In this document: one piece after another, positions 28,466 through 55,819 of the stretch
How positions within the stretch are numbered: position 1 is the first letter of the stretch
Layout: each line of letters opens with the position of its first letter
Source: Sphingomonas sp.
GTDB taxonomy: Bacteria > Pseudomonadota > Alphaproteobacteria > Sphingomonadales > Sphingomonadaceae
Direction of reading: 5' to 3'
Length of the DNA: 64,000 nucleotides
Assembly: GCF_019749955.1 (NCBI RefSeq)
Contig: NZ_JAIEPC010000008.1
Coordinates: 124,001 to 188,000 of the forward strand
The notes under the pieces: model-generated
The model's database searches: none
What the model was told of the DNA's origin: nothing
Seen by the model: the letters and a program-made list of their open reading frames with translations, nothing else
Translations under genes and position numbers: made by a program

Positions 28466-28550
28466 CCGTTCGTTTCGAGCGTAGTCGAGAAACAGGCCAA
28501 GGGCGACGTCGCTTGTGGCCTGTTTCTCGACTGCGCTCGAAACAAACGGG
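28466..28550. repeat. REP-like palindrome pair (family C)
   Basis: cccgttcgtttcgagcgtagtcgagaaacaggcc...ggcctgtttctcgactgcgctcgaaacaaacggg. Confidence 0.9.
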
Positions 28551-35328: not shown

Positions 35329-35424
35329 CCCGTTTGTTTCGAGCGAAGTCGAGAAACAGGCCACAAGCGGTGCGCTCGGCGCCGCTCGCTCCGCTCGCCT
35401 CGACTTCGCTCGACACGAACGGGG
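35329..35424. repeat. REP-like palindrome pair (family C)
   Basis: cccgtttgtttcgagcgaagtcgagaaacaggcc...ctcgacttcgctcgacacgaacgggg. Confidence 0.88.
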
Positions 35425-43755: not shown

Positions 43756-46755
43756 ATGAGCGACACACAGACTACGCCGAAGGACTGGCGCGACACCGTC
43801 TTCCTGCCGAAGACCGATTTTCCGATGAAGGCGGGCCTCCCCCAGAAGGAGCCCGGCATTCTGGCGACGTGGCAGGAAGCCAAGCTCTACGATCGCCTGC
43901 GCGATGCCCGCCGCGGCCGCGAGAAGTTCATTTTCCACGACGGCCCGCCCTATGCCAATGGCGACATGCACATCGGCCATGCGCTCAACCATATCCTGAA
44001 GGACATGGTGGTCCGCACGCAGACCCTGCTCGGCAAGGATGCGCCCTATGTGCCCGGCTGGGATTGTCACGGCCTGCCGATCGAATGGAAGGTCGAGGAG
44101 GAATATCGCAAGCGCAAGCGCAACAAGGACGAAGTCGACCCCGACGAGTTCCGCGCCGAATGTCGGGCCTATGCGCAGAAATGGGTCGACATCCAGCGCG
44201 AGCAGCTAAAGCGGCTCGGCATCAATGCCGATTGGGATCACCCCTATCTGACGATGGATTTCCAGGCCGAAGCGACGATCGTATCGGAACTGATGAAATT
44301 CGCCGAGAGCGACCAGCTCTATCGCGGGGCCAAGCCGGTGATGTGGTCGCCGGTCGAAAAGACCGCGCTGGCGGAGGCCGAGATCGAATATGAGGATATC
44401 ACGTCGACGCAGATCGACGTGGCGTTCGAGATTGTCGAGGCGCCCAACGCACCCGAACTGGTCGGCGCGCATGCGGTGATCTGGACGACGACGCCGTGGA
44501 CGATCCCGGTGAACCAGGCTTTGGCTTACGGGCCGGAGATTTGGTATAATACCATCGTGTTGCAAAAAGCGACTTGGGACGGTCAACCTTATAGTCTTCC
44601 CCGAGCACAAGTCACCGATGGGCTGGGAATCAAAGTCGTCATTGCTGAGGACTTAGCGCTCGCCTTTCGGGATCGAATTGATCCCCGAAGGAATGGCGGT
44701 AGAGGGTATGTGGCTGGCCAATACGGAACTCGATTCCAAGGCTCCGACCTCGTTGGTGCCACCGCCCGGCACCCGATGCATGAACTCGGCGGGTTCTTCG
44801 CGAACCCCCGCCCCTTCCTGCCCGGCTATTTCGTCACCACCGACGCGGGCACCGGGCTCGTTCACATGGCGCCCGACCACGGCGAGGACGATTTCGCGCT
44901 GTGCAAGGTTTATGGCATCGACCCCGTGTTCGTCGTTGGTGCCGATGGCCGGTATCGCGAAAATTGGCCGTGGCTCGGTGGCGAGCCGCTGTCGGTCATC
45001 AACAACAAGCTCAACGCGCCCGACGGGCCGATCTGTAATGCACTTCGCGAGGCGAATGCTCTCCTTTCCGCGCGCAACGATGAGAGCACGAGGCACAGCT
45101 ATCCGCATTCGTGGCGGTCGAAGGCCAAGGTGATCTATCGCTGCACGCCGCAGTGGTTTGTGTCGATGGATAAACTTCTGAGCGGTGGGGAGGAGGCCCG
45201 TGTCTCGACTTCGCTCGACACTAACGGTGTGGAAAACATTGCCACCCAACCCCCGTTCGTCCCGAGCAACGTCGAGGGACAGGCCCCAAGCGATACGCTG
45301 CGCCACCGCGCCATGACCGCCATCGCCAACACCAAATTCATCCCCGAAAAGGGCCGCAACCGGCTCGGGTCGATGGTCGAGGGGCGGCCCGATTGGGTGT
45401 TGTCGCGCCAGCGCGCCTGGGGCGTGCCGATCACCTTGTTCGTCGATCGCAAGACCGGCAAATATCTCTGCGACGCGTCCGTCAACGCGCGGATCATCGC
45501 GGCGGTGCGCGAAGGCGGCGTTGATGCGTGGTCGGAGCGCAATGCATTCTTCTTCTTGAATGGCTTTGAAGAGAACGACGATCCAAGCTTCATGAGGGCG
45601 CTTCATACAGACAATCTCAGGAAGATTGACGATTATGAGCGCGTCACCGACATTCTCGACGTGTGGTTCGACAGCGGCTGCACCCATGCCTTCGTGCTCG
45701 AATCCGGCCGCTGGCCCGACCTGCAATGGCCCGCCGACCTCTATCTCGAAGGCAGCGACCAGCATCGCGGCTGGTTCCAGTCATCGCTGCTCGAGTCGTG
45801 CGGCACGCGCGGGCGGGCGCCCTACAAGACCGTGCTGACGCACGGCTTCACGATGGACCAAAAGGGCATGAAAATGTCCAAGTCGCTCGGCAACACGATC
45901 AATCCGCTCGATCTGATGCGCGATTATGGCGCCGACATCCTGCGGCTGTGGGCGTTGTCGGTCGATTTCACCGAGGATCACCGCATCGGCGACGAAATCC
46001 TGAAAGGGGTCGCCGACCAGTATCGCAAGCTGCGCAACAGCTTCCGCTATCTGCTCGGCGCGCTGGAGGGTTTTGACGAGGCCGAGCGGGTGGCGGTGGC
46101 GGAAATGCCCGAGCTGGAGCGCTACATGCTCCATCTGCTGGCGGAGCTCGACGCCAAGCTGCGTACGGCGGTGAGCGACTTTGACTTCAACAGCTACACG
46201 CGGCTGCTGAGCGATTTCGCCAACAATGATCTGTCGGCCTTCTACTTCGATATCCGCAAGGATTCGCTTTATTGCGATGCGCCGGGGAGCCTCAAGCGCC
46301 GCGCGTGCCGCACCGTGTTCGACACGATGTTCCACGCGCTGGTGCGTTATGCGGCGCCGGTGCTGGTCTTTACGGCGGAAGAAGTATGGCAGACGCGCTA
46401 TCCCGACAGCGAGAGCGTGCATCTGCTCGAGTGGCCGGTGCTTGAAGTGGCGCAAGCCGACGCGACGGTGTGGGCCGAAGTCCGCGCACTGCGCACGCAG
46501 GTGAACGAGGCGATCGAGCCGTTGCGCCGCGACAAATTGGTGCGCACCAGCATGGACGCCGAAGTCACCGTGCCCGCGCTGCCGCTGCCCGCCGATCTGC
46601 TCGCCGAGCTGTTCATCGTGGCGAGCGTCACGCAAGGGACCGCGGTCATTGTCACGCCGACCGCCTTCCACAAATGCGGCCGCTGCTGGCGGTTGCTGCC
46701 CGAAGTCGTTGAGGATGGCGATCTCTGCAACCGCTGCACTGAGGTGGTGGCATGA
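43756..46755 (+). CDS. ileS: Isoleucine--tRNA ligase
   Basis: DGPPYANGDMHIGHALNHILKDM (HIGH), TTTPWTIPVNQALAYG, GMKMSKSLGN (KMSKS), C-terminal zinc motif CGRCWRLL...CNRC. Confidence 0.97.
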   Translation: MSDTQTTPKDWRDTVFLPKTDFPMKAGLPQKEPGILATWQEAKLYDRLRDARRGREKFIFHDGPPYANGDMHIGHALNHILKDMVVRTQTLLGKDAPYVPGWDCHGLPIEWKVEEEYRKRKRNKDEVDPDEFRAECRAYAQKWVDIQREQLKRLGINADWDHPYLTMDFQAEATIVSELMKFAESDQLYRGAKPVMWSPVEKTALAEAEIEYEDITSTQIDVAFEIVEAPNAPELVGAHAVIWTTTPWTIPVNQALAYGPEIWYNTIVLQKATWDGQPYSLPRAQVTDGLGIKVVIAEDLALAFRDRIDPRRNGGRGYVAGQYGTRFQGSDLVGATARHPMHELGGFFANPRPFLPGYFVTTDAGTGLVHMAPDHGEDDFALCKVYGIDPVFVVGADGRYRENWPWLGGEPLSVINNKLNAPDGPICNALREANALLSARNDESTRHSYPHSWRSKAKVIYRCTPQWFVSMDKLLSGGEEARVSTSLDTNGVENIATQPPFVPSNVEGQAPSDTLRHRAMTAIANTKFIPEKGRNRLGSMVEGRPDWVLSRQRAWGVPITLFVDRKTGKYLCDASVNARIIAAVREGGVDAWSERNAFFFLNGFEENDDPSFMRALHTDNLRKIDDYERVTDILDVWFDSGCTHAFVLESGRWPDLQWPADLYLEGSDQHRGWFQSSLLESCGTRGRAPYKTVLTHGFTMDQKGMKMSKSLGNTINPLDLMRDYGADILRLWALSVDFTEDHRIGDEILKGVADQYRKLRNSFRYLLGALEGFDEAERVAVAEMPELERYMLHLLAELDAKLRTAVSDFDFNSYTRLLSDFANNDLSAFYFDIRKDSLYCDAPGSLKRRACRTVFDTMFHALVRYAAPVLVFTAEEVWQTRYPDSESVHLLEWPVLEVAQADATVWAEVRALRTQVNEAIEPLRRDKLVRTSMDAEVTVPALPLPADLLAELFIVASVTQGTAVIVTPTAFHKCGRCWRLLPEVVEDGDLCNRCTEVVA
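45195..45287. repeat. REP-like family C element inside the ileS reading frame
   Basis: ggcccgtgtctcgacttcgctcgacactaacgg...ccgttcgtcccgagcaacgtcgagggacaggcc, both halves related to the copy at 55741-55818. Confidence 0.85.
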
Positions 46756-55740: not shown

Positions 55741-55819
55741 CCGTTCGTGTCGAGCGCAGTCGAGACACCACGCGCATGGCTCGTGGCCTGTCCCTCGACG
55801 TTGCTCGGGACGAACGGGG
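55741..55819. repeat. REP-like palindrome pair (family C)
   Basis: ccgttcgtgtcgagcgcagtcgagacac...ggcctgtccctcgacgttgctcgggacgaacgg. Confidence 0.88.

Follow-up and report, generated by a model that had tools for sequence, protein, structure and literature searches.

The ileS gene in this 64,000-nucleotide stretch of a Sphingomonas genome (the window) raises the question of how both halves of a dispersed palindromic repeat came to be read as part of an essential aminoacyl-tRNA synthetase, and whether a single capture, as proposed in a sequence-only reading of the locus, accounts for them.

A repeat pair within the ileS frame

The ileS product matched the NCBIfam model TIGR00392 with 775.9 bits (cut-off 621.4), and its frame was open right through the repeat pair, as had been claimed. 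The parts of the gene and the further units of the same repeat family, F1, in the window were as follows.

43756-46755, + strand: ileS, isoleucine--tRNA ligase, 999 aa (open reading frame and translation; TIGR00392 match)
45172-45294, + strand: linker slot, residues 473-513, from QWFVSMD to TLRHRAM (alignment of 159 IleRS)
45197-45227: right half of a repeat unit, translated VSTSLDTNG (identical at 31/31 positions to the right halves of units at L025 and L012, both in this genome)
45228-45252: 25-nt junction where the outer ends of the two halves meet (tail-to-tail arrangement)
45253-45298: left half of a repeat unit and start of the inner spacer, translated PFVPSNVEGQAPSD (match to the 55741-55817 unit runs 46 nt)
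28466-28549: head-to-head F1 unit, 84 bp
35330-35422: head-to-head F1 unit, 93 bp
55741-55817: head-to-head F1 unit, 77 bp, the modal length (intergenic in the sequence-only reading)

As first delimited, the two arms in ileS lay at 45195-45227 and 45253-45285, where both halves had been reported; each was 33 nt long, with 76% complementarity and 25 nt between them. The second arm was identical to the minus strand of 55785-55817 at 33/33 positions, and the first matched 55741-55768 over 28 nt with few differences, which confirmed the proposed kinship with the copy at 55741-55819. Closer comparison shows that the ileS segment joins a right half and a left half, taken from two different units and placed tail to tail.

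The source genome, a 3.2-Mb draft assembly of 125 contigs, contained 139 matches to the F1 core GTCGAGCGNAGTCGAGA with at most one mismatch (68 forward and 71 reverse), a count far above chance because the reversed-pattern control gave 0. In a survey that sampled 76 F1 units rather than every unit, 55 were head-to-head doublets like the 55741 copy, with CCGTTCG outside, a modal length of 77 bp and a range of 71-93 bp. Only two others shared the tail-to-tail form of ileS, in agreement with the earlier remark that its halves face the opposite way. Though rare in this genome, the tail-to-tail form of F1 was seen in the ileS genes of many lineages (L031, L042, L062, L106, L127, L182, and L187), and this recurrence may be due to old inheritance in part, or to permuted insertion.

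The slot sits where the long CP1 (editing) insertion returns to the catalytic domain. In an AlphaFold model that was mediocre overall (pTM 0.61), residues 477-510 had pLDDT <50 and were without secondary structure. The view that a repeat was captured as a surface loop stood as to the repeat origin, and a model of this quality gives a faint hint of the loop.

Repeated filling of one linker

The comparison covered 90 IleRS from the genus and 69 from elsewhere in the family. Beyond Sphingomonadaceae the linker was short, as the earlier reading had stated: of 28 class-level loci (other Alphaproteobacteria), 20 had one of 3 aa, and in the IleRS of S. aureus (1FFY) query residues 474 and 516 mapped to the adjacent positions 419/420, that is, essentially without a linker. 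The ileS linker of one class-level locus outside the family (L288) apparently held yet another repeat, GARHEARGTREEESLVS...SSLLAPRASCLAPES. Within Sphingomonadaceae, linker length ranged from ~7 aa (e.g. S. adhaesiva) to 67 aa. Of the 90 congeners sampled, 65 had a repeat there, always in frame, a fraction that is only indicative because the genus sample was non-random (the top-scoring matches were taken first, followed by some long genes); 15 of the 69 sequences from other genera also held one, and no recognised repeat was found in 25/90 and 54/69, respectively. By family, the congener repeats were assigned to F1 (7), F2 (10), F3 (13), F5 (4), F6 (8), F7 (14), F8 (6), F9 (1), and F10 (2), with labels based on short motifs. 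The slot is therefore a long-standing hypervariable linker in the family that has taken up repeats again and again, from about eight repeat families, a number that counts distinct arm types and not proven independent lineages, as F3/F5 and F2/F7/F8 have related hairpin cores. The claim that a selfish repeat had been captured once by an essential synthetase accordingly held for the translated dispersed repeat and failed for the single capture.

The inserts are true genome repeats, abundant in their carriers and nearly absent from the source genome of the window. F3/F5 hairpins numbered 61-129 copies in several genomes with F3/F5 in ileS (61-82 in G163, G198, G187, G141, G127, and G071) versus 1 in the source genome, and F6 hairpins numbered 89+86 in G136, which has F6 in ileS, versus 0; the reversed-pattern control was 0 in every genome. 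Dispersal was counted for F1, F3/F5, and F6.

The capture had been proposed as an exactly bounded insertion of about 30 aa, which was not what the nearest sampled relatives revealed: they carried an unrelated linker of 24-30 aa or another repeat, and the net difference in length from the repeat-free nearest relatives was only ~11-17 aa. Repeat-free linkers took several unrelated forms, one being that of the near relatives L033-L036. The finding named beforehand as adverse to the capture, an unrelated linker of similar length in near relatives, was thus made for some of them, while others held another repeat; such linkers argue against a clean insertion, not against the repeat origin. For the ileS copy, neither a target-site duplication nor a clean empty site could be demonstrated.

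Further peculiarities were seen in single sequences. In the ileS linkers of L135 and L147, additional short in-frame segments split the repeat arms (SSGSTAPRAVEVVPGAQPTPN and GRSCSQHDLNDAGHRLPETG, respectively), and a piece resembling the second segment also lay in the dnaE gene of L397, in the slot described below. Two more IleRS slots with repeat-derived peptides were found in the editing-domain region, at residues ~307-320 and 341-346 of relatives from some species (L131, L132, L133, L140, L149, L160, and L175).

The contents of the linker changed quickly between relatives. On a linker-free tree, which is a FastTree point estimate for a sample not drawn at random, the tree as a whole called for at least 24 changes between repeat and no repeat, and the genus for a minimum of 43 family changes. 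Eight disjoint species pairs with 95-97.5% IleRS identity held different repeat families. In the three closest pairs the DNA identity was 94-97% on both flanks and broke near the MD codons and just before the TLR motif. The ileS gene of L093 contained an F1 half followed by a full F3 unit, and its relatives carried F1 only or F3 only; the native linker was retained beside different inserts in L129, L142, and L145 (compare L136).

Such swaps could also be produced if ileS segments were exchanged between strains by homologous recombination, in place of insertion and loss at the site. The uneven identity upstream and downstream of the linker in two pairs (0.745 versus 0.941 in L093/L051, 0.713 versus 0.971 in L140/L143) is in its favor, but indels elsewhere in the editing domain can cause such unevenness too, and the even flanks of the three closest pairs, with the break at the linker, speak against it. 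Since exchange, moreover, cannot create the many families originally, we regard it as rather unlikely, and the swaps would be caused by insertion and deletion rather than by allele import.

Other host genes and a single reading frame

Nine of the 76 sampled F1 units lay in frame within conserved genes, eight of them in genes other than ileS, so that repeats inside further open reading frames of this genome, proposed as a check, were indeed found. In NCBIfam terms, the hosts were ileS, nitrite/sulfite reductase, dnaE, an acyl-CoA carboxyltransferase (closest to MccB), a biotin carboxylase subunit, dnaE2, uvrA, sufC, and hpnG. In SufC, 39 residues fell between nearly adjacent positions of 2ZU0, from which they are absent, and UvrA had a comparable gap in its alignment. 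Several candidates were rejected: the acyl-CoA ligase hit in L236 (NIYSSEVENV) reflected a conserved motif that matched by chance, and L007, L022, L197, and L217 had non-coding frames or unclear starts. None of 20 F6 loci was in frame by the GC3 filter.

All nine host genes used the same frame, PF(V)xSxVE / STSLDTNG. The probability that nine genes agree by chance is ~(1/3)^8, or 1.5 in 10,000, assuming independence and three equally likely frames. Because the genes share one frame although each frame was open in 41-52 of the 55 units, single-frame use suggests selection against the alternative frames, which are charged or cysteine-bearing.

The dnaE gene is a second recurrent slot, common to different repeat families. 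Before its ELDVI motif the slot was empty in most relatives (a segment of 61-69 aa) and filled in four lineages, with F1 in the source genome and F3/F5-type and other repeats in three others; the loci noted for this slot were L396, L397, L398, and L412.

The filling of one point behind CP1 by many unrelated families, with a like pattern in dnaE, would also be expected if the slot were selected for a strong hairpin, serving as an mRNA pause after the editing domain or as a DNA feature, for which any family would do and the peptide would be a by-product. The inserts are palindromic and that of ileS folds strongly (RNA fold z-score = -4.1), but the donor repeats are themselves palindromic in any case. 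The numerous family members with no recognised repeat and the 3-aa linker of other Alphaproteobacteria do not fit a required hairpin, and the consistent frame points to constraint on the peptide. A hairpin function of the ileS slot is thus quite improbable, and we give little credence to the wider proposal that the IleRS and dnaE slots are both functional hairpin slots, in which sphingomonad selection keeps some palindrome, e.g. for pacing translation at a domain boundary, and whichever family is active fills them. There is likewise only a slight chance that the slot is a hotspot targeted at the DNA level by the integration machinery of the elements: several families do occupy it, and further slots exist in dnaE and in the IleRS editing domain, but the insertion points varied by several codons across species, the flanks were conserved no more than coding constraint would give, and no target motif was identified. 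A chance resemblance or an assembly error, which a draft genome might invite, is practically negligible, as other copies in the genome agree with the ileS halves at 31/31 and 33/33 positions, which refutes chance, the frame is uninterrupted, and inserts of the same kind occur in the independently assembled S. aerolata, S. echinoides, and S. glacialis.

Origin of the inserts and relation to known elements

Our preferred explanation, which we consider likely, is that REPIN-like elements disperse, are tolerated only where a flexible linker takes them up in frame, and are then turned over fast. Sphingomonad genomes carry several unrelated families of palindromic units that would spread within the genome, and insertions into genes would normally be purged. 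A unit would survive only if it were in frame and the linker tolerated a foreign peptide; the IleRS linker would be one such slot and dnaE another. The ileS copy would be a rearranged REPIN-like unit, right and left half tail to tail, read as an unstructured and presumably neutral linker behind the CP1 insertion, and old units would be lost or overwritten while others came in, so that the contents of the slot turn over rapidly. Bacterial genomes consist mostly of coding sequence. Because only ~12% of the sampled F1 units (9/76) nevertheless lay in conserved genes, with most of them outside, tolerated capture, with insertions elsewhere purged, is the simplest account.

In their anatomy the units agree with REPINs. 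REPINs are inverted REP doublets with a spacer that form a dispersing unit with a predicted hairpin (Bertels and Rainey 2011, PMC3116915), and F1 resembles them in its many copies of inverted imperfect palindromes with a spacer, 55 of them head-to-head doublets. However, REPINs are extragenic and tied to RAYT (PMC3116915), whereas nine of the 76 F1 units were intragenic and F1 showed no RAYT flanked by its repeats. PF01797 (Y1_Tnp, RAYT) was present in 5 of 30 genomes and not found in 25. The source genome had two neighboring Y1-type transposase genes (L193 and L195, C121:9645-11254), whose ~3.3-kb loci contained no F1 core, so that RAYT as the mobilizer of F1 received no support.

The closest precedents are intragenic. 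S. alaskensis and E. litoralis are sphingomonads. In the account of Di Nocera et al. 2013 (PMC3733652), intragenic GTAG/CGTC REP dimers are in frame and encode 20-30 aa in uvrA, dnaE2, dnaE, and tRNA synthetases, including those of S. alaskensis and E. litoralis, much as F1 doublets do here. F1 had no clear fit to the CGTC/GTAG description, whereas F6, an insert family of other species, does resemble CGTC. A CGTC-tagged REP, as described there, has a CGTC (or TGTC/CCTC) tag, an 8-9 bp stem, a 4-5 bp loop, and a CCA-like tail (PMC3733652); compared by eye, the F1 arm CCGTTCGTGTCGAGCGAAGTCGAGACAC had TGTC on one strand, and the stem/tail pattern was not seen. The same account gives different REPs at about the same recB site in two Xanthomonas species, a single case as described, whereas one IleRS slot shows dozens of switches among about eight families. 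The parallel with Rickettsia palindromic elements drawn by the sequence-only reading was apt. These elements (RPE; Ogata et al. 2000, 2002, as cited in PMC10969869) are dispersed palindromic repeats of several families translated in frame in conserved genes, and F1 was in frame in nine unrelated ones. By description, they differ in size (~150 bp, against doublets of 71-93 bp with a mode of 77 here) and in that here many families refill the same slot.

Intragenic REPs, including those in tRNA synthetases (PMC3733652), and RPEs before them (PMC10969869) are thus already known, and a literature search for palindromes in isoleucyl-tRNA synthetase found no paper. The new findings are how many families fill one essential slot and how fast they replace one another there, the like behavior of dnaE, and the use of a single frame. 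Intragenic REPs had mostly been listed as scattered cases, whereas one slot of an essential enzyme here records dozens of fillings from unrelated repeat families, some of which differ between species only 3-5% apart in IleRS protein. The slot is a natural clock and assay for the movement of repeats, their rate of loss, and the peptides that a folded enzyme tolerates, and it warns that protein linkers of sphingomonads are often translated repeats. In these bacteria, mobile junk-like DNA is swapped quickly in and out of an essential enzyme.
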